From IMG/VR virus record IMGVR_UViG_3300028558_000016, positions 1-64,000 of that record: a DNA stretch of 64,000 nt; one strand, written 5' to 3'. This DNA is from a virus. The notes under the pieces were generated by a model. That model was not told where the DNA came from. It did no database searches and saw only the letters and a program-made list of their open reading frames with translations. This document shows positions 5,272 through 61,524 of this stretch, in pieces. Made by a program: the position numbers and the translations under genes. Every line of letters begins with the position of its first letter. The first letter of the stretch is position 1.

Positions 5272-5297
5272 AAAAGTAAATGTAATAAAAAATTTTG

Positions 5298-5370
5298 AGC
5301 CGATGACAGGGATCGAACCTGCGACCTCCTCTTTACGAAAGAGGCGCTCTACCAGCTGAGCTACATCGGC
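5298..5370 (-). tRNA. tRNA-Thr (anticodon CGT)
   Basis: A complete cloverleaf: acceptor GCCGATG/CATCGGC, D-stem GCTC/GAGC, anticodon stem CCTCT/AGAGG with loop TTCGTAA, and T-loop TTCGATC. The anticodon CGT reads ACG. No CCA is encoded. Confidence 0.95.
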
Positions 5371-5374
5371 AAAT

Positions 5375-5457
5375 GAAACCGAGCTTTTATTTAGGGACTT
5401 AAGGCAGGTTGCTCTGCTCTGATATTTGCCCAGGAGAATCTTACTCCTATCGGTTTC
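5375..5457 (-). ncRNA. structured small RNA candidate in tRNA cluster
   Basis: The segment is closed by a perfect 8-bp stem, GAAACCGA/TCGGTTTC, 83 bases end to end. Inside are a hairpin AGGAG/CTCCT and a second potential stem GGCA/TGCC. It has no T-loop or anticodon arm, so it is not a tRNA. T4 also carries stable non-tRNA RNAs in its tRNA cluster. Expression is not shown. Confidence 0.45.
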
Positions 5458-5547
5458 TCATGGCTTGTCGTCCTGAAACATTTTGTATACAAGCCAACCC
5501 ATCACAATAACTGCAATGACAATAACTATGTAACAAAATATATCCAT
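5458..5547 (-). CDS. 29-residue single-pass membrane peptide
   Basis: The frame begins MDIFCYIVIVIAVIVMGW and ends FQDDKP: one hydrophobic segment with a short charged tail. It lies exactly between a tRNA-Gly and the structured RNA above. It is small, so the call rests on the clean hydrophobic pattern and ATG-to-TGA frame. Confidence 0.42.
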   Translation of the reverse strand: MDIFCYIVIVIAVIVMGWLVYKMFQDDKP

Positions 5548-5548
5548 G

Positions 5549-5634
5549 TGCAGTAGGTGAGATTCGAACTCACAACCCCCTGATTGGAAGTCAGGTGCTC
5601 TATGCTTTCGCGTCCAATTAGGAGCTACTACTGC
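5549..5634 (-). tRNA. tRNA-Gly (anticodon TCC) with enlarged D-loop
   Basis: Acceptor GCAGTAG/CTACTGC pairs perfectly, the anticodon arm is CCTGA-CTTCCAA-TCAGG, and the T-arm GTGAG-TTCGAAT-CTCAC is intact. The D-stem GCTC/GAGC encloses about 21 bases instead of 8-11, including a GCGAAAGC mini-hairpin. A normal tRNA-Gly(TCC) exists at 6408. Confidence 0.82.
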
Positions 5635-5664
5635 AAGTGCGAACTTTCCATCGCATTAATTGGA

Positions 5665-5720
5665 GCAACCTCAGTTAACTGATTCGCATTTCTGCGAGGG
5701 GGGAGTTAACCTCTGGTTGC
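5665..5720 (-). ncRNA. structured small RNA candidate with GAAA-loop hairpin
   Basis: Nested inverted repeats: outer GCAACC/GGTTGC, middle GTTAAC/GTTAAC, and an inner TCGCA-GAAA-TGCGA hairpin with a GNRA tetraloop on the minus strand. It is flanked on each side by a related AATTGGAGC motif. No tRNA features are present. Confidence 0.45.
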
Positions 5721-5729
5721 GTAATTGGA

Positions 5730-5773
5730 GCCGAGGGGCCGTTCTCCAACGGTGAGTTCCCTTTCAACTCGGC
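5730..5773 (-). ncRNA. structured small RNA candidate
   Basis: A 6-bp outer stem GCCGAG/CTCGGC encloses a CCGTT-GGAG-AACGG hairpin. It lies six bases from the next tRNA and follows the element at 5665-5720. It may be part of one larger RNA with that element. Confidence 0.38.
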
Positions 5774-5778
5774 ATGTG

Positions 5779-5869
5779 CGGGGAAGATTGGAATCGAACC
5801 AATTAGTTTGATTTGCAGAAGACATTCTTTTTAAACAGAATGGTGCTCAGCCACCCGAGCATCTTCCCC
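5779..5869 (-). tRNA. tRNA-Leu-like (anticodon TAA or TTA) with 8-base anticodon loop
   Basis: Acceptor GGGGAAG/CTTCCCC and T-arm ATTGG-TTCGATT-CCAAT are good. The anticodon stem CATTCT/AGAATG encloses GTTTAAAA, eight bases rather than seven. The anticodon reads TAA (Leu UUA) if the second T is U33, or TTA (a UAA reader) if the first is. The variable region is long but has no obvious stem. Confidence 0.7.
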
Positions 5870-5874
5870 TTTTA

Positions 5875-6057
5875 TTATTTTCTCTTTCTCTCTTCGTCTA
5901 AATATCTATCATGTTCGTCTTTTGAATAGATCTCATAGTAACCACATTTTACTTTGTAATAAAATGGTGACATGTATTTCCATTCCTTGTTAACATCAAT
6001 GAATTTAGATTTTTCTAAAATCTGATTTTCCTCATCCGTCGGTTTGATTGTAATCAT
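5875..6057 (-). CDS. small hypothetical protein
   Basis: A 60-residue protein starting MITIKPTDEENQ, with an aromatic middle (YMSPFYYKVKCGYYEIY) and a charged tail. The frame opens further upstream (to 6120), but the internal ATG at 6057 follows an A-rich leader of the kind used by other genes here, so I chose it. It sits between two tRNA genes. Function unknown. Confidence 0.5.
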   Translation of the reverse strand: MITIKPTDEENQILEKSKFIDVNKEWKYMSPFYYKVKCGYYEIYSKDEHDRYLDEERKRK

Positions 6058-6195
6058 CGTTTTGTTTTTAGTTATTAAATAGGATGGGAAAACTTTAAGC
6101 GATAGTCTTTCGACAGGCAAGTTATTTTTTCATCGATGATTGATCAAGTCACCTCAAAATAAAATACTTTTCTACACTTCAGCACTTTCCCTCTG

Positions 6196-6268
6196 AGCGG
6201 AAAACGGGGCTCGAACCCGCGACCTTAACCTTGGCAAGGTTACGCTCTACCAACTGAGCTATTTCCGC
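6196..6268 (-). tRNA. tRNA-Gly (anticodon GCC)
   Basis: Acceptor GCGGAAA/TTTCCGC, D-arm GCTC/GAGC, anticodon arm TAACC-TTGCCAA-GGTTA and T-loop TTCGAGC. Complete and canonical. Confidence 0.95.
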
Positions 6269-6272
6269 ATGG

Positions 6273-6401
6273 TGCAGTGTAATTAAAAGGGTTGGACTTA
6301 TCTTCCATTCGTCAATGGCTCTTACCAACTTTCGATGTCACGATTAATTTTAAGCGCAAAACGATTCTATTGTCGAATTTTCTATTTGCGCCGACACTGC
6401 A
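6273..6401 (-). ncRNA. 129-base multi-stem RNA candidate between two tRNA-Gly genes
   Basis: An 8-bp closing stem TGCAGTGT/ACACTGCA joins bases 6273-6280 with 6394-6401. Inside are GCGCAAA/TTTGCGC (6354-6360 with 6385-6391) and GTTGG/CCAAC (6291-6295 with 6325-6329), the latter capped by CCATT-CGTC-AATGG. That is a three-way junction with no tRNA features. Function unknown. Confidence 0.5.
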
Positions 6402-6407
6402 TTTTTG

Positions 6408-6480
6408 AGCGGGAGACGAGGTTCGAACTCGCGACCTATAGCTTGGAAGGCTATCGCTCTACCAACTGAGCTACTCCCGC
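6408..6480 (-). tRNA. tRNA-Gly (anticodon TCC)
   Basis: Acceptor GCGGGAG/CTCCCGC, anticodon arm ATAGC-CTTCCAA-GCTAT, T-arm GCGAG-TTCGAAC-CTCGT. Canonical 73-base tRNA. Confidence 0.95.
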
Positions 6481-6484
6481 GTGC

Positions 6485-6509
6485 GGACATTGTTTCGGGT
6501 ACAACGTCC
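6485..6509 (-). other. hairpin spacer
   Basis: GGACGTTGT and ACAATGTCC form a 9-bp hairpin with one G-T pair, between a tRNA-Gly and a tRNA-like element. It could be a processing or folding spacer. Confidence 0.4.
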
Positions 6510-6515
6510 AAAACC

Positions 6516-6592
6516 TAATGGGGCCAGGATCGAACTCGCGTCCGACGAATGGAAGCTAATGAGGCCATCCAAACCGCTCATTATCGCCTGGC
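6516..6592 (-). tRNA. degenerate tRNA-like element (TCC in loop position)
   Basis: It has a T-loop block GCGAG-TTCGATC-CTGGC with one mismatch, and a CTTCCAT loop that would carry TCC. The anticodon stem does not pair well. Two mutually exclusive closing stems are possible (TAATGAG/CCCATTA, or GCCAGG/CCTGGC). It may be a tRNA-Gly pseudogene or a tRNA-derived RNA. Confidence 0.35.
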
Positions 6593-6645
6593 ATTTGTTG
6601 ATGATACACAACATTATATACCGACTGTATAAAAATGTTTTAATG

Positions 6646-6718
6646 TGACCCCGGTGGGGATCGAACCCACAACCACCTGATTAAGAGTCAGGAGCTCCAC
6701 CAATTGAGCTACAGAGTC
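6646..6718 (-). tRNA. tRNA-Lys (anticodon CTT)
   Basis: Acceptor GACTCTG/CGGGGTC with G-T pairs, anticodon arm CCTGA-CTCTTAA-TCAGG and T-arm GTGGG-TTCGATC-CCCAC. Canonical; reads AAG. Confidence 0.93.
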
Positions 6719-6748
6719 ATTTTGTTGATGCAATACGTCAAAGATCGT

Positions 6749-6973
6749 TCATTTCATGAAAAGATGTTTAATTCTTTCCATATCTACTTCAATAGTTTTA
6801 ATGTTCAACTTCTCTCCAGTCTTTTTAAAATGATCATACCAAAGTCTAACCTTTTCAGATTTTATTATCTGACCATTATAATTTTTCCTTTTCAACCATT
6901 CCTTTCCAAAATATAAAATTCGTTTTTCTGTTATTCTCGAATTCATTATATGTTTAAAAACTTTTTCAATCAT
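6749..6973 (-). CDS. small basic hypothetical protein
   Basis: A 74-residue basic protein (FGKEWLKRKNYNGQIIKSEKVRLWYDHFKKTGEK region) located between two tRNA genes. No family is recognised. The frame is clean and ends in TGA. Confidence 0.55.
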   Translation of the reverse strand: MIEKVFKHIMNSRITEKRILYFGKEWLKRKNYNGQIIKSEKVRLWYDHFKKTGEKLNIKTIEVDMERIKHLFMK

Positions 6974-6974
6974 G

Positions 6975-7059
6975 TAGCGCTGGTGAGACTCGAACTCACA
7001 CTACCGTTAAGGAACCCGCTTATGAGGCGGGCACAATTACCACATCTGTTCACAGCGCT
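6975..7059 (-). tRNA. tRNA-Met-like (anticodon CAT) with long variable region
   Basis: Acceptor AGCGCTG/CAGCGCT, anticodon arm CCCGC-CTCATAA-GCGGG and T-arm GTGAG-TTCGAGT-CTCAC are sound. The D-stem is only about 3 bp and the variable region is about 15 bases, longer than usual for a CAT tRNA. It could be an elongator Met or, if C34 is modified, an Ile(AUA) reader. Confidence 0.8.
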
Positions 7060-7101
7060 ATCTCGTCTGCTTCTTTGTAGGCCCCGTACTATATCTACAA
7101 A

Positions 7102-7371
7102 TCATTTGGTGGGGCTGTCGGAAACAGCAGACTTTACTTTATTTTCTTTCTTATACGTCTTCAAGAATTCCAAAGCATTTTGCAATTCTTCGACCCTGTT
7201 CTTGTTAGAAGGAATGCTTCCATTTGCCTGTCTAACAGTCATCGGATCCGATGACGATAAATTCTTTTCAAAGAACTCTAAATTTCTTTCTTCCATTAAG
7301 AGTCTTTCTCTTAATAATTTTGCCACGTATGGCATCGGATCATATTGTCCTCTTTCTTCTTGTGTCTTCAT
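7102..7371 (-). CDS. small hypothetical protein
   Basis: An 89-residue, helix-prone, charged protein that starts MKTQEERGQYDPMPYV. It lies between tRNA-Met and a tRNA-Lys. No domain recognised. Confidence 0.55.
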   Translation of the reverse strand: MKTQEERGQYDPMPYVAKLLRERLLMEERNLEFFEKNLSSSDPMTVRQANGSIPSNKNRVEELQNALEFLKTYKKENKVKSAVSDSPTK

Positions 7372-7375
7372 TTGG

Positions 7376-7464
7376 TGCGCCCGGAGGGATTCGAACCCCC
7401 GTTGGTGTTATTCACACGTCTGATTAAAAGTCAGGACCATTCGGCCAGCTATGGGAACGGACGC
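7376..7464 (-). tRNA. tRNA-Lys-like (anticodon TTT) with class II variable arm
   Basis: Acceptor GCGTCCG/CGGGCGC and T-loop TTCGAAT are intact, and the anticodon loop is CTTTTAA. The variable region forms a GTGT/ACAC stem, as in Leu, Ser or Tyr tRNAs and not in Lys. A canonical tRNA-Lys(TTT) follows at 7479. Confidence 0.78.
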
Positions 7465-7478
7465 ATTTGTTTTTATTG

Positions 7479-7552
7479 TGCGCCCGGTTGGGTTCGAACC
7501 AACGACCCCCTGATTAAAAGTCAGGTGCATCTACCAGCTGAGCTACGAGCGC
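7479..7552 (-). tRNA. tRNA-Lys (anticodon TTT)
   Basis: Acceptor GCGCTCG/CGGGCGC, anticodon arm CCTGA-CTTTTAA-TCAGG, T-loop TTCGAAC. Canonical; reads AAA. Confidence 0.94.
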
Positions 7553-7578
7553 AAATATTTGGATATGGAAATCCTCTT

Positions 7579-7602
7579 GCATCTCGTATTTCAGCGAGAT
7601 GC
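7579..7602 (-). other. 8-bp hairpin in tRNA cluster spacer
   Basis: GCATCTCG and CGAGATGC form a perfect 8-bp stem with an 8-base loop just upstream of tRNA-Lys. There is no clean T-tract, so a processing hairpin is as likely as a terminator. Confidence 0.4.
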
Positions 7603-7670
7603 CTTTACCGTTTATATTTCATTTTAGTTTTCATTATCATTATATTTTTTAAAAGAACAGAATACGTTTT

Positions 7671-7757
7671 TTACCTTTTCATTAAAATTGAAATGCTCGT
7701 TAGAGCTTGTTTGTTTTGCTGTACGTATTCTTTTTTCTTTTTAATTTCTACCACCAT
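7671..7757 (-). CDS. possible 28-residue Lys-rich peptide
   Basis: An ATG frame reading MVVEIKKKKEYVQQNK and ending in TAA, in the gap between tRNA-Lys and the interrupted tRNA. Very short and only weakly supported. Confidence 0.25.
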   Translation of the reverse strand: MVVEIKKKKEYVQQNKQALTSISILMKR

Positions 7758-7774
7758 TCAGGATGCTTTTGTTT

Positions 7775-7880
7775 TGGCAAAGATTGGATTCGAACCAATG
7801 ACCTCTCGTTTACTTTCCTTAACAATGTTTCCATTGACGGGGATTTCAGGCGAGCGCTCTACCAACTGAGCTACTTATCC
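7775..7880 (-). tRNA. interrupted tRNA: about 35-base insertion in the anticodon loop
   Basis: D-arm GCTC/GAGC and T-arm ATTGG-TTCGAAT-CCAAT are canonical and the acceptor GGATAAG/CTTTGCC pairs at five of seven positions. The anticodon stem CTCG/CGAG encloses 42 bases rather than 7, including a CAATG-GAAA-CATTG hairpin. The 5' side reads CCTGAAAT, which would give GAA (Phe) if the extra bases were removed. This is far too short for a normal group I intron. It may be a pseudo-tRNA. Confidence 0.6.
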
Positions 7881-7908
7881 TTTTGTAATGCTGCATGCAT
7901 CCTTTTTG

Positions 7909-7981
7909 AGCCGAGAACCGGGGTCGAACCGGTGACCTTCCGCTTACAAGGCGGGTGCTCTACCAACTGAGCTATCTCGGC
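7909..7981 (-). tRNA. tRNA-Thr (anticodon TGT)
   Basis: Acceptor GCCGAGA/TCTCGGC, anticodon loop CTTGTAA, T-loop TTCGACC. Canonical; reads ACA. Confidence 0.94.
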
Positions 7982-7984
7982 AAT

Positions 7985-8119
7985 TTACAAATATTCGTTC
8001 TTGTTACACTCAAAAAACAAAACCCACAACTCGTGAATTCTCTCATTCACTTCATCATTTCCATTTTGTCTCTTGTTTAACAAAGACATCAATTCGTTTA
8101 CTATGTCATCCTTTTTCAT
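7985..8119 (-). CDS. 44-residue acidic small protein
   Basis: The frame starts MKKDDIVNELMSLLNKRQ and ends NKNEYL before TAA. It precisely fills the space between tRNA-Thr(GGT) and tRNA-Thr(TGT). It is predicted helical. No family recognised. Confidence 0.5.
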   Translation of the reverse strand: MKKDDIVNELMSLLNKRQNGNDEVNERIHELWVLFFECNKNEYL

Positions 8120-8122
8120 TTG

Positions 8123-8195
8123 AGCCTACAACCGGGATCGAACCGGTCACCTCATCCTTACCAAGGATGTGTTCTACCAACTGAACTATGTGGGC
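8123..8195 (-). tRNA. tRNA-Thr (anticodon GGT)
   Basis: Acceptor GCCCACA/TGTAGGC with one mismatch, anticodon arm CATCC-TTGGTAA-GGATG, T-loop TTCGATC. Reads ACC/ACU. Confidence 0.92.
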
Positions 8196-8222
8196 AATGT
8201 CTCCGATCGTAAAAATAATCTC

Positions 8223-8312
8223 TCAAATATTATCAAGATCATTTCCATTCTTTATTAAGCGGTCGGACACGCTACTACTAAATCCAAAAGTTGCAACTTC
8301 TGAATTTTTCAT
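8223..8312 (-). CDS. possible 29-residue peptide
   Basis: An ATG frame reading MKNSEVATFGFSSSVSDR and ending in TGA directly after an atypical tRNA-Met. Weak support; it may be spacer. Confidence 0.28.
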   Translation of the reverse strand: MKNSEVATFGFSSSVSDRLIKNGNDLDNI

Positions 8313-8318
8313 CTTTGA

Positions 8319-8412
8319 AGCGGGAGTGAGATTCGAACTCACGTTCTCTTTCGAGTTGAGGCTTATGAGGCCCTGCTGGCGTTTTGCAACTTCCATCTCC
8401 AGTCGATCCCGC
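8319..8412 (-). tRNA. tRNA-Met-like (anticodon CAT) with enlarged D-loop and variable arm
   Basis: Acceptor GCGGGA/TCCCGC is preceded by an unpaired first base, as in an initiator tRNA. Anticodon loop CTCATAA and T-arm GTGAG-TTCGAAT-CTCAC are intact. The D-stem CTGG/CCAG encloses 19 bases, and the variable region forms CTC-GAAA-GAG. It is a second CAT tRNA besides the initiator at 8553. Confidence 0.75.
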
Positions 8413-8552
8413 AATGTGTGCCGCTTCCTGGACCCTATCACCAGGATTTTCTTTGGACTACAGAAGAGAGATTCGCCAATTTTTTTCCATAGAATTAAAC
8501 CATATACGGCGCTTTTCTACACTCTCAACTTTCGCAAGCGGACTTTTATTTG

Positions 8553-8624
8553 TAGCGGGAGATGGATTCGAACCACCGACCTCAGGGTTATGAGCCCTGC
8601 GAGCTACCCCTGCTCTATCCCGCA
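8553..8624 (-). tRNA. initiator tRNA-fMet (anticodon CAT)
   Basis: The first acceptor position is mismatched (T opposite T), followed by GCGGGA/TCCCGC. The AGAGCAGGGGTAGCTCG D-arm and the GGGCTCATAACCC anticodon arm with its GGG/CCC pairs are hallmarks of bacterial initiator tRNA. It is the first tRNA of the cluster in transcription order. Confidence 0.88.
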
Positions 8625-34347: not shown

Positions 34348-34656
34348 TTATAACTTAGATTGCTCCTTTGAAAGAGCTTGCATGGCTTGCGCTTCTTTCT
34401 GCATAGAAGCTGCTTGCATAGATGTTAGCTTTGCGATAGTAGTGAGCAGAGCGCTCTTCTCCTGTGTCTTCTGGAATAACTTTTTATTGGTGGCATCAAT
34501 CTTCGACATCTTGCTTCTTGCTATCTTGATTTGGTCCAAATATTGGGATTGCTTCTTCTGCTCGTTTTCAACGTCAATAGCTTTAGATTGAACTGCTTCA
34601 TTGACACTTTCGTGCACGGGTTCAAAAAACTCATTAAACGGTTTGATGTTATTCAT
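34348..34656 (-). CDS. coiled-coil protein with capsid-targeting-like N-terminus
   Basis: A 102-residue helical protein. The first residues, MNNIKPFNEFFEP followed by SVNEAVQS, resemble T4 capsid-targeting sequences and the leader found in genes at 56467-61524. VNE-A would fit the prohead protease site type. The rest is a Gln/Lys/Ala-rich coiled coil. It may be an internal head protein. Confidence 0.62.
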   Translation of the reverse strand: MNNIKPFNEFFEPVHESVNEAVQSKAIDVENEQKKQSQYLDQIKIARSKMSKIDATNKKLFQKTQEKSALLTTIAKLTSMQAASMQKEAQAMQALSKEQSKL

Positions 34657-40632: not shown

Positions 40633-41127
40633 TTACAGTTCCCTTTCTATGTAATCGGCAATCTCAGTGAATGATTTCTTTTGAGTATCATTCATGTCCA
40701 TTAAACCATCTGCTATGTGACTCATTTCATGATCTTCTCTCAAAAGAGATGGAACTTTTTCAAATCTTTCTGGAATGTTTCCGCCAGCTCTTCTAACCTT
40801 ATCGTTAGAATATCCAGCTACTTTAGCAGCAACTCCAAGAACGCAAAATCCCCACTCCTGTTTTGCACCCATTTCCATTTCCGTCTTGGTATGCTTTCTG
40901 GCAAGGCTTCCATCGATCTGTTCAAATTTTCCAGATCTTAAAGCTTCTAACCATTTCTTTTTAAATACAGGAGGAAGCTTTCCTTCTTTAGATTTTTTGA
41001 TCTCAGCATCCAACTTCTTCATTATATTTCCAACTCCAGCAGGTTTATCAAGCTGGACACCTACCACATTAGAACTCTTCTTATGCGGTGACAGTGGCTT
41101 TTTCTTTAGTTGTACTTGCGCTGACAT
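40633..41127 (-). CDS. phage-conserved hypothetical protein
   Basis: A 164-residue protein with KKKWLEALRSGKFEQIDGSL, WGFCVLGVAAKVAG and a C-terminal MNDTQKKSFTEIADYIE. This pattern recurs in many phages and has no known function. It overlaps the AAA+ gene by 47 bases. Confidence 0.72.
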   Translation of the reverse strand: MSAQVQLKKKPLSPHKKSSNVVGVQLDKPAGVGNIMKKLDAEIKKSKEGKLPPVFKKKWLEALRSGKFEQIDGSLARKHTKTEMEMGAKQEWGFCVLGVAAKVAGYSNDKVRRAGGNIPERFEKVPSLLREDHEMSHIADGLMDMNDTQKKSFTEIADYIEREL

Positions 41128-42688
41128 TTTCCTTTATTTTTATTGGGGTTATGTTTTTAATCTTATCGTTTTGTTCTGTCTGCAATTCATAGGCCAAATC
41201 CTCGAAATGGTGCTGGTGGTTCATCCTTGAGTTCTGTTTGAATGATTTCAATATTGAATCAGTCACATCATCAATGGTAACACCAGATGGTTTCTTTTTG
41301 TTTCCTTCCAAATCTCTGTTTATAGCAGAGGTGATTGACTCATTGACGATGGAAGCAATCATGGCTCCATTTATGATATGAGACATGCAGAAATCCATGT
41401 TAGAACCACTTTCCAATTCTATCTGGTACAGACGTAATGTTTTATCAAACACGAGCTGTGCGGCACTCTTAGAGATTTTCTTTGCATCAATGGTTGCAGA
41501 TGCACATGGAACTTTTTTCAAGTTGAGGTTGAATATCATTTCAACACTTTCCTGTGTTGGACGTGGAACTTTAATCTTCTTGTCAATACGTCCTTCGCGT
41601 ATTACTGCACTGTCCAACATGTCAGGTCTGTTTGTAGTCAATATTACAATTGCAGAGCTTTCATCAAGACCGTCCATTTCAGTAAGGAACTGAGGAACTA
41701 TCGTCTTGTCAACATCACTGCTTTTTCCTGAACCTCTTTTGCTTAGGATTGCTTCTGCTTCATCAATGAAGATTATTGCAGGACATCCGGTATTCTTTTT
41801 GTATTCGCGAGCTGATGCAAATATTCCACGAATTCTTTCTTCGCTTGCGCCAACGTACATGTTTAAAATTTCAGGACCTTTGATGTAAATAAATCCTGAC
41901 TCTTCTGTTTTGTATAACTCTGCAATGGATGAAGCAACAGCTTTTCCAATCATCGTCTTACCGTTACCTGGAGGTCCCCATAACAAAATACCCTTTGTTG
42001 GTTTTCTTCCATATTCAGAAAATAATTCTTTATATTTTATAGGATGCTCAATTGCTTCCTGCATGCTCTTCTTCACATCTTCAAGACCACCAATATCTGC
42101 CCAGGTAACTCCTGTTTTGGAAGTGAACACATATTGACCTTGATTTTTTCCAAGGTTCTTCATGATCAATGTTCCAGACTCATCGAGAATAACACGACAT
42201 CCTTTTTCCAATTTTTGTTTTGGATCTTTTGGATTTTGATCGCTGAACAATCCGGTTAAAACAATTCTAACACTTCCGTTAGCATCTATTTCCGCGTGAT
42301 GGTCATCAAGAATATCTTTAATGATCACGGTCATTCCATAACTAACTCCGTCGGTTTTTTCAACTATTCCAACACCGGCTTTAGTTGTCACCAATTTAAC
42401 GGTGTCACCAACCTTTAGTTTAAGAAGGTCTTTTTGCTTTTTAGTGTAAAGAACTTCTATGCGTTTGTTGTCATAGATCAACACGCAAGTGTCTTCTTTA
42501 TGTTTTGCACTTGGAAGATAATCTTCATCATTAGCTTCCTTTGGCATGGTGATTCTCTTATCGAGAGCTATCACAATTCCATAGGTAAATGATTGATCAA
42601 AAATTCCGCGCAAGTAATCTTGCTGCTGTGCGATAATTTCTTTTGCCTGTTCAAGGACTTCAGATGTTGCTGGCGTTTTACCTGACAT
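41081..42688 (-). CDS. proteasome-ATPase-like AAA+ unfoldase (ARC/Mpa/PAN type)
   Basis: A 535-residue AAA+ protein. A short helical N-terminus precedes an OB-like segment (residues about 60-185) and TWADIGGLEDVKKSMQEAI. Walker A GPPGNGKT is at 238-245, Walker B IIFIDEAEA near 293 and sensor 1 TTNRPD near 345. This architecture (coil, OB, AAA) is that of the proteasomal ATPases Mpa/ARC/PAN and of Cdc48. It lacks the C-terminal HbYX tail that docks a proteasome (it ends KATVTA). It may unfold proteins or remodel complexes, with an unknown peptidase partner. Confidence 0.82.
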   Translation of the reverse strand: MSGKTPATSEVLEQAKEIIAQQQDYLRGIFDQSFTYGIVIALDKRITMPKEANDEDYLPSAKHKEDTCVLIYDNKRIEVLYTKKQKDLLKLKVGDTVKLVTTKAGVGIVEKTDGVSYGMTVIIKDILDDHHAEIDANGSVRIVLTGLFSDQNPKDPKQKLEKGCRVILDESGTLIMKNLGKNQGQYVFTSKTGVTWADIGGLEDVKKSMQEAIEHPIKYKELFSEYGRKPTKGILLWGPPGNGKTMIGKAVASSIAELYKTEESGFIYIKGPEILNMYVGASEERIRGIFASAREYKKNTGCPAIIFIDEAEAILSKRGSGKSSDVDKTIVPQFLTEMDGLDESSAIVILTTNRPDMLDSAVIREGRIDKKIKVPRPTQESVEMIFNLNLKKVPCASATIDAKKISKSAAQLVFDKTLRLYQIELESGSNMDFCMSHIINGAMIASIVNESITSAINRDLEGNKKKPSGVTIDDVTDSILKSFKQNSRMNHQHHFEDLAYELQTEQNDKIKNITPIKIKENVSASTTKEKATVTA

Positions 42689-56466: not shown

Positions 56467-56760
56467 TTATTTTTCTAATATTGAAATAATTCCCTTAACA
56501 TCTTTAGAGTCTTCCAAATAAGTAGCTTCTTTTCCAGAAGTCTTATGCTTAAACGTGTATTCCTGCTTATGACCGACCTTCTTAGAATCTTCCAATTCAA
56601 GAATATTCTTTGGATCTACTGAAATGAATGGTTCTTTCTTTTCATCGAAATATGCTTTGTGGTAACCATCTCTTCTCAATTGTCCACAAATCTGATTAAG
56701 AATCATGTCTGAGAAATTGGTTTGACTCTCGAAATCCTCAAATAATTTTACGTGTTTCAT
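56467..56760 (-). CDS. small protein with capsid-targeting-like N-terminus
   Basis: A 97-residue protein starting MKHVKLFEDFESQTNFSD, the same leader type as its seven upstream neighbours. The rest is mixed. It is the last gene of the array. Function unknown; possible internal head protein. Confidence 0.66.
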   Translation of the reverse strand: MKHVKLFEDFESQTNFSDMILNQICGQLRRDGYHKAYFDEKKEPFISVDPKNILELEDSKKVGHKQEYTFKHKTSGKEATYLEDSKDVKGIISILEK

Positions 56761-56761
56761 G

Positions 56762-58015
56762 TTATTCGTAAGAACATTGCTGAATGATCATGCGTTTTGC
56801 ATCACCCAAATCATCCACGTTCTTTAATATTTTTATAGCCTTCAATAAGGTTCTCATATTTAATTGAACCTTTTTATTAACCGCCGCAACACTTTTAATA
56901 GTGTTCAACGCTCCATTCTTCAAAGACATCGGTTCCTCAGGCATAACCTTTGGCATTAATTCCTCAATGTATTTAACCATGTCATCTGGAGACAATGCAA
57001 CTTCAAGAACAAAAGCTCTCGACTTGATTGCAGGGTCAATTTTCTTCTGAGGCAAGTTACTTAAGAATATTACTCTTCCATTAAAGTTAAAACTTCTTGG
57101 AACTGTTTCTCCTGTCGTAGGATCTTTAATCTCTCTTGCAACTTCCCATGTGATGTCTCTCTCAGATTCCTCAGAGTCAAGAGCACCTTTCAATATGTTT
57201 ATCGCGTTGTCATCCTTGAAAACGCTATCACAATCATCGTATATTATAAGCTTTCCATTATTTCTGTATAATGAAATGTACATTGCGGCCGCAGTAGTTT
57301 TACCTTTAACCTTGACCCAATCTTTTCCTTTTTCAAGTCCTGCCTTCTTGATCTCATCAGCAGTTATAAACGTCTTACCAACACCTGGACTTCCTGTAAC
57401 GAGCAAAGCCGGTTGGGTTCCATTAATAACCATCTTCACGTATCTTCTCAAATCATTGAAAATAGTTTTTGGATCTCCGTATTTGTATTCTGCGATGGTC
57501 TTGTCGATCTCATCTGCTTTCGCATCACCTGATTTCAATTCAGTTTTAGGAGTGTCAACCAAAGCTAATTTCTTTTTAGGATGTATCTTATATCCTGGAA
57601 TATTATCTGCTGTATGTGTTTTATCTTTAACAAGCTCATTAAGGCTTTCCTTAATCTCTCCAACGTGCGGATCCTTCATCAATTTTGGTATCAATGAAAT
57701 AACTTTATCCACATTTCCATCAACAACATACAATGTTGATTCAGGAGACGTTGATTTAGGAAGCCAAAAATCCACACTGTATAAAGTATTAGTGTCTGCA
57801 GTAAAGTTCAAAGAAAACGAATGTCCTTCCTTATCTGAAAATAAATAAGCTATCTGTTTAGGCTCAGGTCCATTTTCTCCTTCTCTATGCACTTCCTGGA
57901 AATCAGGAATATAATAAAGATTATCTCCAACAGTGTCCTTGACACTTTTAATTATGTCGCCCTGCGCTTGATTCGCTTCATATAACGATTCCCACAGTCT
58001 GAATTTTTTTATCAT
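56762..58015 (-). CDS. AAA+ ATPase with capsid-targeting-like leader
   Basis: A 417-residue protein starting MIKKFRLWESLYEANQAQGD. Residues about 185-400 are an AAA+ domain with Walker A TGSPGVGKT (207-215), Walker B LIIYDDCD near 255 and a sensor region FLSNLPQKKIDPAIKSRAF near 305. The leader matches the others in this array, so this ATPase might be packaged in the head or act during head assembly. It shares an ATGA-type junction with the next gene. Confidence 0.75.
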   Translation of the reverse strand: MIKKFRLWESLYEANQAQGDIIKSVKDTVGDNLYYIPDFQEVHREGENGPEPKQIAYLFSDKEGHSFSLNFTADTNTLYSVDFWLPKSTSPESTLYVVDGNVDKVISLIPKLMKDPHVGEIKESLNELVKDKTHTADNIPGYKIHPKKKLALVDTPKTELKSGDAKADEIDKTIAEYKYGDPKTIFNDLRRYVKMVINGTQPALLVTGSPGVGKTFITADEIKKAGLEKGKDWVKVKGKTTAAAMYISLYRNNGKLIIYDDCDSVFKDDNAINILKGALDSEESERDITWEVAREIKDPTTGETVPRSFNFNGRVIFLSNLPQKKIDPAIKSRAFVLEVALSPDDMVKYIEELMPKVMPEEPMSLKNGALNTIKSVAAVNKKVQLNMRTLLKAIKILKNVDDLGDAKRMIIQQCSYE

Positions 58016-59352
58016 TTTGTGTATTTGTCAAATTGTTTATCAAGGTCAGCTTTGCTTAAATCCTTTTTAAGCAAGTTTCCTTTTTCCTTATACTTGTAAA
58101 TCTGCACAGCAAAATCAATTAGACCAAACTGTAAAGTCTTTTGAGACATTTCCGGCTTAGCCTTTATTATCATTCCAAACAATGCGATTAAATCATTTTT
58201 CAAGTGATCAAACACTGCATCGTCTATTTTGTCTCCGATTGCTTCTTCTATAGTTCCTTTAGCCTCAGCGAAATTCTTTTTCACTTGCGTCATGTCGACT
58301 GTAACTTCAGGCTTTTTAGTCTCTTCCTTTTTTGCATCATCCTTCTTAACGTCATCGGTTGGAGTAGCGTCTGTTTTTGCTGTTGTGTCAGCCGCTTTTT
58401 CTTCCTTATTTCCTTTTGCGGCAAGAAGCAATTGATCAATGTAATTTATCTTCGATTGAATTAAATCAGAAGCGCTTTTAACCTTCTTGGAAATTTCATC
58501 AATCTCTTTTGCCTGTTGGTCCTTGTCGGAAGTTCTATTCTTGATGTTCTTGATGTCATCATCTTTTTGATCTTTCATCTTCTTCAATTCCTTTTCAAGG
58601 TAACTCAATATGTCGCTGAGCTTGTCAGCTGAAGTTGATTTCAACTTTTGTTGAATTTCAGAAATTGGTTTCGATAACAAATCCTTGATCTTGATTCCAG
58701 CAACAGATAAATCCTCATCCTCATCTGGTGTCTGATCAAATTTTCCAGAAGATACAGAGCCGTATTTCTCTTTGAACTCAGCATCTTTTTTTCTTGCAGC
58801 TTTTGCAGCCTTTTGTATTTCAGTATCAAACAGATCATGTAGAGTTGTATCGTCAGAAGATTTCTTGATCTCATCAAAAGATTCTCTTGCAGCTTCTTCA
58901 TCGACCTTTGCCTTCTTCATTTCCCAATAATCTTTTAGTCTTGTGCTGTCCTTGATTATGTTTGTTGCTTGTCTCGAGAGAGCATCATTAACGTCTTTTC
59001 TCTTCGTCTCGACTTGAGCCTGAAGTTTTTTAACTCTTTCCTTTTGCTCTTCATATTTCATTCTATCCACTGGATCTGATTTTGCTTCTCTTGAAAGAGC
59101 ATCAGCCTCAGCGAATCTTCCACGTGCATCCGCCCAATCAGTCCAATAGTCTAATTCGTTATCCTTATATTTTCTTAATATCTTATCGAGTTTTGAAACA
59201 GCTCCACCCAACATTCTTGAAAAGAAGTTTTTGATCGAAGATAAAACACCTTCGTCCAATTGCTCGGATTCATTCAAAGAGATTTTATATTCTCCTCTTT
59301 CAATGGCTCCAATGGAAAGACTCTCAAATAATTTGAATTTATCTATTATCAT
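58012..59352 (-). CDS. large coiled-coil protein with capsid-targeting-like leader and protease-like sites
   Basis: A 446-residue, Lys/Glu/Asp-rich protein starting MIIDKFKLFESLSIGA. Near residues 27-35 are LNE-S and LDE-G, which fit the T4 prohead-protease cleavage pattern (L/I-x-E before G/A/S). The following LSSIKNFFSRMLGGAVSKLDKIL resembles a segment in the gene at 59747, so the two are probably paralogues. The rest is long coiled coil with a low-complexity Thr/Asp/Lys part near residues 325-350. Confidence 0.72.
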   Translation of the reverse strand: MIIDKFKLFESLSIGAIERGEYKISLNESEQLDEGVLSSIKNFFSRMLGGAVSKLDKILRKYKDNELDYWTDWADARGRFAEADALSREAKSDPVDRMKYEEQKERVKKLQAQVETKRKDVNDALSRQATNIIKDSTRLKDYWEMKKAKVDEEAARESFDEIKKSSDDTTLHDLFDTEIQKAAKAARKKDAEFKEKYGSVSSGKFDQTPDEDEDLSVAGIKIKDLLSKPISEIQQKLKSTSADKLSDILSYLEKELKKMKDQKDDDIKNIKNRTSDKDQQAKEIDEISKKVKSASDLIQSKINYIDQLLLAAKGNKEEKAADTTAKTDATPTDDVKKDDAKKEETKKPEVTVDMTQVKKNFAEAKGTIEEAIGDKIDDAVFDHLKNDLIALFGMIIKAKPEMSQKTLQFGLIDFAVQIYKYKEKGNLLKKDLSKADLDKQFDKYTK

Positions 59353-59747
59353 TGTATGTTGAATAGTTTTTTAACCGTTTTTAATTTAGCAGGTCCAGCT
59401 TTAATATATCTTCCGATAGACTCCGGTCCTCTCTCGCTCATTATACCTTCTGCGCCATCTACTATTTTCTTTGCTATGGAAGTTAATGCTTCCCAATTGT
59501 TTACAACGTCAGCAGCATATTTCAATTTGCTTGGAATGTTTTCTGTTTGGCTTCCCATCAAATCGTTGATCTCCTTATTAAGAGCTTCCATGTCTCCCCA
59601 ATATCTGTCGTCCTTTGTAACTTCTCCGGACTCAGCGTAACCATCATACAAGTCAATAAGCTTTAACAAAGCATTATATCCTTGCATCGCTGTTGTTGTA
59701 TCTATTGCTTCATTAATAAAGCTCTCAAAAAGTTTGATGTGTTTCAT
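59349..59747 (-). CDS. small protein with clear capsid-targeting-like leader
   Basis: A 132-residue protein starting MKHIKLFESFINEAID, the closest match to T4 internal-protein leaders (MKTYQEFIAEA). INE-A is an ideal prohead-protease site. The rest is helical. It overlaps both neighbours by a few bases. Confidence 0.72.
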   Translation of the reverse strand: MKHIKLFESFINEAIDTTTAMQGYNALLKLIDLYDGYAESGEVTKDDRYWGDMEALNKEINDLMGSQTENIPSKLKYAADVVNNWEALTSIAKKIVDGAEGIMSERGPESIGRYIKAGPAKLKTVKKLFNIQ

Positions 59748-60616
59748 TATACATTTTTAATTAGTTTCTCGAGAGACTTTTTGTTAACGACAAAACCATT
59801 TGGAGTGTTTTTTGTTTTGACCAAAACCATTCCATCTTCCAATTTTTCTCCTTGGTGATTTTTTTCAAGATCGACTATCTCAGCCTCTTGCTCATGCTTT
59901 TTAGCATCATGTCTCAACCACACTTGACCGACCTTTGCGTTAGCAGGATCATTTGCTTTTTTATCTTCCTCTTCTTTTTCCTTCACCTTAGCATCCTCGA
60001 TGGCTTTCTTTTCTTGTTCTTTCTTTTTCTTAAGGTCGTTAACTTCTTTTTCCAACTTATCAAGTTCTTCTTCACTTGCATATTTTTCAGCATCATCTAA
60101 TTTCTTTGTTGCCACGTCTTCTTGGATCTGAAGCAATTGCATTTGAGCGTAATTCTTAACGATGTCGCTCTTATCTTTGGTTAACATTTGTAGTTTTCCA
60201 TAGATTGCATCCTTCTTGCTTTTGCTTGCTTCTTCAATTGCTTGAATTGCTTTTTCAGCTCTGTTCACAAGCTCCTTGTTTCTTGGACTTTCTTTGTCAT
60301 CCAAATTAGCTTTGTATATTTTATCTCTTTCTCTTTTTGTCTTATCGTAAATTGATAATTGAACATCCTTGTATTCTGTTAGGACTGCGTCGATCTTCTT
60401 AAGAAGGTTTCCAGGAATTGCTCTAAGGACCTTTTCTTTTATCTTGCCGAACAATCCACCAATGATGTCACCGAGAATTCCTTCGTTGATCTTCTCAAGC
60501 TCCTCACGAGTAAATCCATTCTCCAATAACACGTCATCACTGATCGTGTCAATAGAATTTTCCAATATGATTGCAGCTTTTTCAAACTGTGCGAATGTTA
60601 GTTTCATCTTATTCAA
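59747..60616 (-). CDS. coiled-coil protein with capsid-targeting-like leader
   Basis: A 289-residue protein starting MNKMKLTFAQFEKAA. INE-G near residues 39-42 fits the prohead-protease site and is followed by ILGDIIGGLFGKIKEKVL, like the sibling at 58012. A long Lys/Glu/Asp coiled coil follows, then a C-terminal beta segment, AKVGQVWLRHDAKKHEQEAEI, that may be an SH3-like fold. Confidence 0.72.
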   Translation of the reverse strand: MNKMKLTFAQFEKAAIILENSIDTISDDVLLENGFTREELEKINEGILGDIIGGLFGKIKEKVLRAIPGNLLKKIDAVLTEYKDVQLSIYDKTKRERDKIYKANLDDKESPRNKELVNRAEKAIQAIEEASKSKKDAIYGKLQMLTKDKSDIVKNYAQMQLLQIQEDVATKKLDDAEKYASEEELDKLEKEVNDLKKKKEQEKKAIEDAKVKEKEEEDKKANDPANAKVGQVWLRHDAKKHEQEAEIVDLEKNHQGEKLEDGMVLVKTKNTPNGFVVNKKSLEKLIKNV

Positions 60617-60893
60617 TATTATATTTTATGGCCAACGACTTAATAGTCTTGCTGTCCTTTCCGTGATACTTCAAATGGAAAGTTATAATGCTTCTTATCA
60701 TCTCAAGATTCCTATTCTTAAAATCTGCGCTTTCCTCGCATTGCTTATCAAAGTCCTGAATTATTTTATCAAACGTCTCAGGGTATATGTTCAACAAAAT
60801 GTCTTTTGCAGAAACTCCTTCAAGACCAACTTCTTGGTAATGTTCAGACTCTGCGTTTGCACCATACTCGTTTAACTGCTTTATGAATTTCAT
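60609..60893 (-). CDS. small protein with capsid-targeting-like leader
   Basis: A 94-residue protein starting MKFIKQLNEYGANAESEH. LNE near residue 8 is a possible cleavage point. The remainder is helical. It overlaps the gene downstream by eight bases. Confidence 0.64.
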   Translation of the reverse strand: MKFIKQLNEYGANAESEHYQEVGLEGVSAKDILLNIYPETFDKIIQDFDKQCEESADFKNRNLEMIRSIITFHLKYHGKDSKTIKSLAIKYNIE

Positions 60894-61090
60894 GCTGAGA
60901 ATTTTTGTAATATTTCTATTAACTCTTTTGCTTGTTCTTTGTCTATGACTACCTGTTGAACAACATTTCCAAGGTCTTGTTGAACATAAAGAAATTTCTC
61001 AGTAACTTCCAATTGCAAATTGAGATTGGCAGCTGATGATTTGATGGTCTTCTTTTCTAAATCCTCGTTTAAGCTTTTTATGTATTTCAT
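60890..61090 (-). CDS. small protein with capsid-targeting-like leader
   Basis: A 66-residue protein starting MKYIKSLNEDLEKKTIKS. Its ATG overlaps the stop of the gene downstream (ATGA). Function unknown. Confidence 0.62.
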   Translation of the reverse strand: MKYIKSLNEDLEKKTIKSSAANLNLQLEVTEKFLYVQQDLGNVVQQVVIDKEQAKELIEILQKFSA

Positions 61091-61134
61091 TTGTGGTTGT
61101 TTTCTTGTTTTAAGTTTAGCATATAGGTCTTTTG

Positions 61135-61524
61135 TTATGCTCCCCTCTTTTTTAGAAACCCGGCCTTTAACTTTTCGAGATTCCTCTCTAACCTCCCTGA
61201 ATTATCGATCATTCCAGTAAACGAACCAGACTGTTCTTGCTTTTTAAGAGCACCAAGCATATTGTCGATGTTGCTCTTCATATTATTAATTGTTCTCATG
61301 GATTCAGAATCGAGGTTGTCGTATGACAACTTCAATGCAATAATCTCATCGCTCATTTCTGTCAATAACTGATGGATGTCAATTAAAGTTTTCTTTATCT
61401 TGGAAACCTTCTTTAGGTTGTCAGAAATCTCAAATCTGAACTTTGCTTTCTCAGGCGTAACTGCTTCGCTGAGAGGGGCTTGAAAGTCCTTTCCGAATTC
61501 TTCTAATGGCTTGATTCTCTTCAT
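61135..61524 (-). CDS. protein with capsid-targeting-like leader
   Basis: A 129-residue protein starting MKRIKPLEEFGKDFQAPLSEAV. LSE-A is a possible prohead-protease site. The rest is a coiled coil. It is the first gene of the array, at the strand switch. Confidence 0.68.
   Translation of the reverse strand: MKRIKPLEEFGKDFQAPLSEAVTPEKAKFRFEISDNLKKVSKIKKTLIDIHQLLTEMSDEIIALKLSYDNLDSESMRTINNMKSNIDNMLGALKKQEQSGSFTGMIDNSGRLERNLEKLKAGFLKKRGA

Follow-up and report, generated by a model that had tools for sequence, protein, structure and literature searches.

A short N-terminal leader on at least 74 proteins of a huge phage as a probable T4-type capsid-targeting sequence

What does a short, shared N-terminus do on proteins that otherwise have little in common? 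The question is raised by eight open reading frames (ORFs), all on the minus strand and arranged head to tail at positions 56467-61524 of IMG/VR virus record IMGVR_UViG_3300028558_000016. The record, hereafter the genome, holds 482,156 bases, and the stretch analyzed first, the window, is its first 64 kb. An earlier note likened the starts of the eight proteins to the leader of the T4 internal proteins, and read the array as a set of proteins that are loaded into the phage head and injected. The eight ORFs with the N-termini listed there are indeed present, after correction of one start from 60616 to 60607. The array itself is genuine, but at least 74 genes carry the leader, in several clusters across the genome, and the array accounts for only some of them. 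Based upon the sequence comparisons described below, we consider it probable that the leader belongs to a T4-type capsid-targeting system, greatly expanded to serve at least 74 proteins.

The T4 capsid-targeting sequence is found on three internal proteins (IPI, IPII, and IPIII) and on the propeptide of Alt (table in PMC9026906). In this leader, residues 4 and 7 matter for targeting and residues 8 and 10 for processing by a protease with the motif L/I-x-E, and Asp at residue 10 blocks processing while targeting is retained (PMC9026906). All three internal proteins block type IV restriction (PMC12373910). In the T4 record, IPII and IPIII begin MKTYQEFIAE↓A (here and below, the arrow marks the cut site). 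The leader studied here is likewise N-terminal, with a length of about 10-14 residues, a Lys at position 2, a hydrophobic/aromatic pair three residues apart, and an aliphatic-x-E followed by a small residue. As in T4, it is common to unrelated proteins, in a genome that also encodes a gp21-type protease and a gp23-type capsid protein. The canonical form, MKHIKLFENFLNE↓A, contains F-x-x-F-[LIV]-x-E↓A, which reproduces the T4 spacing Y4-x-x-F7-I8-x-E10↓A and so bears out the proposed likeness; the key positions are shifted by three residues (F7, F10, L11, E13), in a leader three residues longer. In contrast to T4, many leaders here have no clear cut site and the protease is fused to a putative scaffold. 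Pfam and PHROG scans of the leader proteins returned no match to the T4 internal proteins.

Across the genome, the leader follows the consensus M-K-H-I-K-L-F-E-x-F-[L]-N-E, in which the bracketed L and the N are less fixed. The pattern M-x-x-h-K-h-[FY]-E has 53 matches in the genome versus 1 for its reversed control, and a shorter form has 7 versus 0, for a total of 60 versus 1 with these strict patterns; a pattern used earlier, M-K-x-h-K-x-[LF]-x-[ED], gave 20 versus 0. Leader genes cluster at 56-61, 147-168, 194-206, 265-271, 440-442, and 458-476 kb. We curated 74 of them, encoding proteins with a mean length of 132 amino acids, within the 231 kb that were read; these stretches were picked largely for holding leaders, and leader counts elsewhere rest on pattern searches. 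Together with three divergent members of the array they make 77 leader-class proteins, which align over the leader alone (MKxIKLFExFxNE) and are otherwise unrelated. Among the genes of the window, those recognized as core replication and ligase genes lack the leader. In a wider viral collection, at least 115 stretches match the strict leader, versus 10 and 37 for codon-permuted controls. Chance as the origin of the leader is ruled out by the reversed-pattern controls and these permuted scans. As a separate observation, a neighbor of the leader genes in the 147-168 kb cluster, the ORF at 158486-158848, appears by eye to encode a T4 gp25-type baseplate protein.

If the leader is of the T4 type, a matching protease should be encoded in the same genome, and a search for a gp21-type enzyme, which had been suggested as a check, found one near the array. 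Two head genes lie immediately upstream of the array, separated from it by a few genes on the other strand. The first encodes a gp23-type major capsid protein (genome positions 66728-68251; PF07068, E=6.5e-44). The second (68283-70385, minus strand) encodes a 700-residue protein that combines an S77 prohead protease with a scaffold-like part. Its N-terminal part matches the S77 family, with PF03420 above the cut-off, and His105, Ser161, and Asp183 (numbering of the 700-residue protein) occupy invariant columns in an alignment with T4 gp21, PAU gp151, and PTm1 ORF300; we read these as the catalytic residues. In the C-terminal part, a 14-residue unit (YLAENLDKSIxYxE) recurs 13 times in tandem, with an [LI]xE in every copy, and this part may be a fused scaffold built for total digestion. 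The capsid protein serves as an independent yardstick for the leader sites: its putative cut site, assigned by sequence, is kept by all 69 relatives, as LNE↓S in 68 of them and as LNE↓N in the remaining one, and LNE↓S matches the sites in the leaders.

Candidate sites are concentrated where processing of a leader would require them. [LIVM]NE occurs within residues 6-25 in 29 of 66 leader proteins versus 12 of 259 other genes (p=3e-14), while the two groups do not differ in residues 26-60. At exactly residues 11-13, [LIVM]xE is present in 23 of 66 leaders, compared with 1.6 expected from shuffles. F/Y7 is found in 63 of the 66 and F10 in 46; since only 23 have [LIVM]xE at 11-13, the T4 targeting and processing residues are present in full in a subset only. 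A conserved family of long coiled-coil proteins encoded next to the capsid gene (family B, represented in the array at 58012-59352) permits a test by homology. Among 47 homologues, 38 contain [LIVM]xE↓[AGSN], which is absent from an equal-sized window downstream, and in 36 of these the site lies 13-15 residues ahead of an FGG motif, even though propeptide length varies from 13 to 53 residues. The other nine have eight [LI]NE and one ISE, with a different residue after the cut (P1'). When family B is considered together with a second such family (family A, at 59747-60607) in four phages (8 sequences), the sites read [LIV]-[DNS]-E↓G, and neither the E nor the G varies. Finally, of 200 genes in relatives that lie no more than 4 kb downstream of the capsid gene, 76 have predicted sites, versus 19 of 454 upstream genes, a comparison whose p value overstates the difference because the genes are homologous and not independent.

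Comparable leaders occur in other phages. In LR756502 (642 kb), leaders read MKHLKKFNE↓[SANG], and one region (L241:1540-4860) holds eight or more consecutive leader genes in tandem, of the MKHLKKYNE↓S type. In Sphingobacterium phage PAU, the leader MKT[IL]xxLYE..LNE↓[AS] is present on 19 of 250 genes, many of them near the portal, protease, and capsid genes; its architecture, MKT[IL]xxLYEAKLNE↓[AS], is that of the leader described here. Three of the four PAU genes labelled 'internal capsid protein' (gp142, gp154, and gp199) carry it (p=0.0014); the record states no basis for the label, and other names in it (mango, banana) suggest cryo-electron microscopy and virion work. The gene for the PAU capsid protein predicts 585 amino acids, whereas N-terminal sequencing gives a processed form of 520 (PMC5646251); this mature N-terminus, the one that is known among these capsid proteins, lies within one residue of LME64↓N. 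PAU differs from the phage described here in its own leader dialect, in having fewer leader genes, and in a protease that is not fused to scaffold repeats. Many more viral contigs hold arrays such as MKHVKLFEQFINEG (L206, L199). Leaders are similar inside one phage and different between phages, which suggests that each is tuned to its own core. In two further contigs (L093 and L118), a tandem array of at least eight short paralogues starts MKHIKLFEDYSDEEL, a leader without a cut site. Our literature search for leaders of this kind in huge phages turned up no work other than that on the T4, P1, and phiKZ types.

The phiKZ and SPN3US phages are similar in being jumbo phages with many head proteins, some of which have N-terminal propeptides cut after Glu by a gp21-related protease (PMC9026906, PMC5694885). 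However, their motif is S/A-x-E and several of their propeptides exceed 100 amino acids, whereas the phage described here has L/I/V-x-E, leaders of mostly 8-20 residues, and a gp23-type capsid protein. For this difference in motif and leader length, we rejected assignment to the phiKZ-type class of ejection proteins. The host is probably a member of the Bacteroidetes, because the DNA upstream of leader genes is A-rich and lacks a Shine-Dalgarno sequence, and because the capsid protein is related to those of Prevotella, Tenacibaculum, Flavobacterium, and Chryseobacterium phages.

How might such a system work? During prohead assembly, the amphipathic N-terminal leader would dock dozens of proteins onto the protease-scaffold core formed by the 700-residue fusion. 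The protease would cut where the leader ends, after L/I/V-x-E. LNE↓S in the major capsid protein would be a further target of the enzyme, and the scaffold probably another. The mature proteins would stay in the head with the DNA and then be ejected into the cell on infection, where accessory proteins (an AAA+ ATPase, a Pol X-like nucleotidyltransferase, an esterase, and many small ORFans) would act before phage gene expression. For the two capsid-adjacent coiled-coil families, a head-core or DNA-associated role would be more likely. The sequence supports targeting and processing by the leader, whereas we infer that the proteins dock, are packaged, cut, and injected, and infer likewise what each of them does. 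A broader claim would be that huge phages, probably of Bacteroidetes, have an injectome that can be read from sequence: in one phage, about 10% of all genes (at least 74) would have products that a transferable leader directs to the head and that enter the cell along with the DNA. Each lineage would use a leader dialect fitted to the core of that lineage, so that pre-loaded effectors could be listed from sequence alone. We regard this claim as evenly balanced between true and false. If true, the leader pattern would turn dozens of small unknown huge-phage genes into a testable list of pre-loaded proteins, likely to include anti-defence and host take-over factors. The packaging tag of T4, described on a few proteins, would also prove to have grown into a means of mass delivery, and a series of natural tags would become available with which to load cargo into large capsids.

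Several observations weigh against this model. First, [LIVM]xE is found up to residue 25 in just 40 of the 66 leaders, and at residues 11-13 in just the 23 noted above; the remaining 26 would stay uncut. The fit to a T4 prohead protease that the earlier note proposed is thus partial: the protease, the matching capsid site, and the homologues that keep the site while the propeptide varies argue for it, but these 26 leaders do not conform. Second, at least 74 leader proteins, compared with three internal proteins plus Alt in T4, is a large stretch. Third, PAU gp70 is labelled internal yet has no leader. Fourth, the gp23 phages PTm1, MaF61, and MA9V-2 gave matches close to controls, from which we take the leader dialect to be lineage-specific. 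Finally, among contig fragments, gp23 or gp20 is present on 16 of 26 leader-bearing contigs versus 4 of 11 control contigs, a difference that is too weak to use.

Might the leader proteins help to build the head, rather than travel in it? The leader could bind the scaffold core while most of the proteins that carry it act as assembly aids (core filler, size determination), to be cut and expelled before DNA packaging like T4 gp22, gp67, and gp68, with few injected. Families A and B, long coiled coils beside the capsid gene that are conserved in dozens of phages, would suit such a role, as would the protease-scaffold fusion with its 13 site-bearing repeats. Yet small ORFans and enzyme-like proteins (Pol X, esterase, AAA+) account for dozens of those with a leader, both dispersed and in accessory clusters, unlike core filler, and most have a single site, near the N-terminus. 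We consider this explanation unlikely.

Alternatively, the leader could have nothing to do with the head and be a signal for sorting or interaction, directed for example at a phage-made compartment, a host protein, or the membrane, with incidental L-x-E sites. This is quite unlikely in view of the enrichment of sites at leader ends and a tripeptide identical to that of the capsid-protein site, the conserved cut position in family B, the clustering of sites near capsid genes in relatives, and the PAU 'internal capsid protein' labels, although the cut site is missing from many leaders, leader clusters are located far from the head genes, and the leader is amphipathic when modelled as a helix (mean hydrophobic moment 0.40 versus 0.27 for shuffled sequences).

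It is very improbable that the common start is not a functional peptide but an element of the DNA or RNA (for a promoter, ribosome loading, or a hot spot of recombination) or a remnant of recent gene duplication: leader genes do have an A-rich upstream region in common and some are tandem paralogues (L093, L118), but identity over leader codons 4-8 is 0.74, 0.86, and 0.49 at codon positions 1, 2, and 3, and upstream DNA is hardly conserved beyond its A-richness. As second codon positions are conserved and synonymous sites vary, selection acts on the leader peptide and not on the DNA. These codon-position identities, with the absence of a shared upstream motif beyond A-richness, rule out a DNA or RNA element, and gene duplication is ruled out since the leader proteins fail to align past the leader, though the genes at 58012 and 59747 resemble paralogues of each other.

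Returning to capsid targeting as the preferred explanation, the members of the array differ in how closely they follow the canonical leader. At the upstream end, the protein encoded at 61135-61524 (129 amino acids) begins MKRIKPLEEFGKDFQAPLSE↓AVTPEKAKFRF, with a predicted cut after residue 20 and the leader at 61465-61524. In its homologues (contigs L013 and L014), FLQE↓A and IHE↓G immediately precede the conserved mature start TPxKAKxRF, where the protein here has LSE↓A. The gene at 60890-61090 (66 amino acids) matches the leader pattern and has a weak site with Asp at P1' (MKYIKSLNE↓DLEKK). That at 60609-60893 (94 amino acids; MKFIKQLNEYGANAESE) has a weak site, LNE↓Y, and a homologue in contig L013. 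For the family A ORF (59747-60607), the start first given was a TTG (position 60616); an ATG in the same frame (60607), giving the leader MKLTFAQFEKA, is preferred because relatives begin MKLVKF... and MKFSKF.... Its predicted cut is INE42↓G, with the propeptide at 60482-60607. A canonical full-length leader, MKHIKLFESFINE↓A, occupies 59709-59747 in the gene at 59349-59747 (132 amino acids) and ends in INE↓A. The family B protein (446 amino acids) reads MIIDKFKLFESL...LDE34↓GVLSSIKNFFSRMLGG, with the propeptide at 59251-59352; the gene holds both LNE↓S and LDE↓G and had no match among isolate phages. Next come the AAA+ ATPase gene (56762-58015), with the leader MIKKFRLWESLYE↓A at 57977-58015 and the site LYE↓A, and a 97-residue protein (56467-56760; MKHVKLFEDFESQTN) with no good cut site. 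All of the sites that had been named (INE↓A, LNE↓S, LDE↓G, INE↓G, and LSE↓A) are therefore present, but in three of the eight genes (56467, 60609, and 60890) the only sites are LFE↓D, LNE↓Y, and LNE↓D, in which P1' is not a small residue. The reading of array members as injected cargo also needs to be narrowed, as those at 58012 and 59747 resemble conserved proteins of the head core more than obvious effectors for injection. Outside the array, a further candidate named at 34348 proved to be a leader-like protein of 102 amino acids (34348-34656, minus strand; MNNIKPFNEFFEPVHESVNE↓AVQSK) with VNE↓A.

The identification of an AAA+ ATPase in the array was correct. The protein is of the T4 nrdC.10 / phrog_1250 type (phrog_1250, E=1.4e-35), and Walker A (GSPGVGKT), Walker B (YDDCD), sensor N320, R333, and R388 are intact and invariant. 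It resembles that group in the AAA+ domain and in its Walker, sensor, and arginine residues, but adds a 180-residue N-terminal region. In a structure model (mean pLDDT, predicted local distance difference test, 68), this region comprises a low-confidence leader helix, a small beta domain, and a disordered linker (118-182) that contains a second site, LNE127, followed by the AAA+ domain at 183-417. A fold search with the model returned generic AAA+ matches (RuvB, NorQ, clamp loaders) and the nrdC.10 family, including nrdC.10 of Aeromonas phage 25, and indicated no specific function. Homologues in unrelated leader-rich contigs start MRHIPNYSEFKKINE↓A, and that of LR756502 (L262) starts MKIKKYQAFYE↓A; the homologue in Bacteroides phage DAC16 is without a leader. 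A second AAA+ ATPase is encoded in the window at 41081-42688 (PF00004, E=1e-37 in the genome search).

Most of the other leader proteins match no known family in Pfam and PHROG scans. Among those that do, the Pol X-like protein at genome positions 205495-206082 (MKHLKLYEEFVDE↓A; PF14791, E=2.9e-15) has a full DNA polymerase beta thumb domain and a partial palm, and is a possible packaged repair polymerase. In the UPF0227-type esterase-like protein (163459-163983), the leader MKHIKLFEEQ is fused directly, without a cut site. One leader protein matches the polyvalent-protein domain LPD11 (2.8e-31), and another has a weak match to the RNA 2'-phosphotransferase family. A scan against a defence-system library gave one match, which was weak (JetC). 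Elsewhere in the window, eleven tRNA genes lie within 3.3 kb on the minus strand, at 5297-8624.

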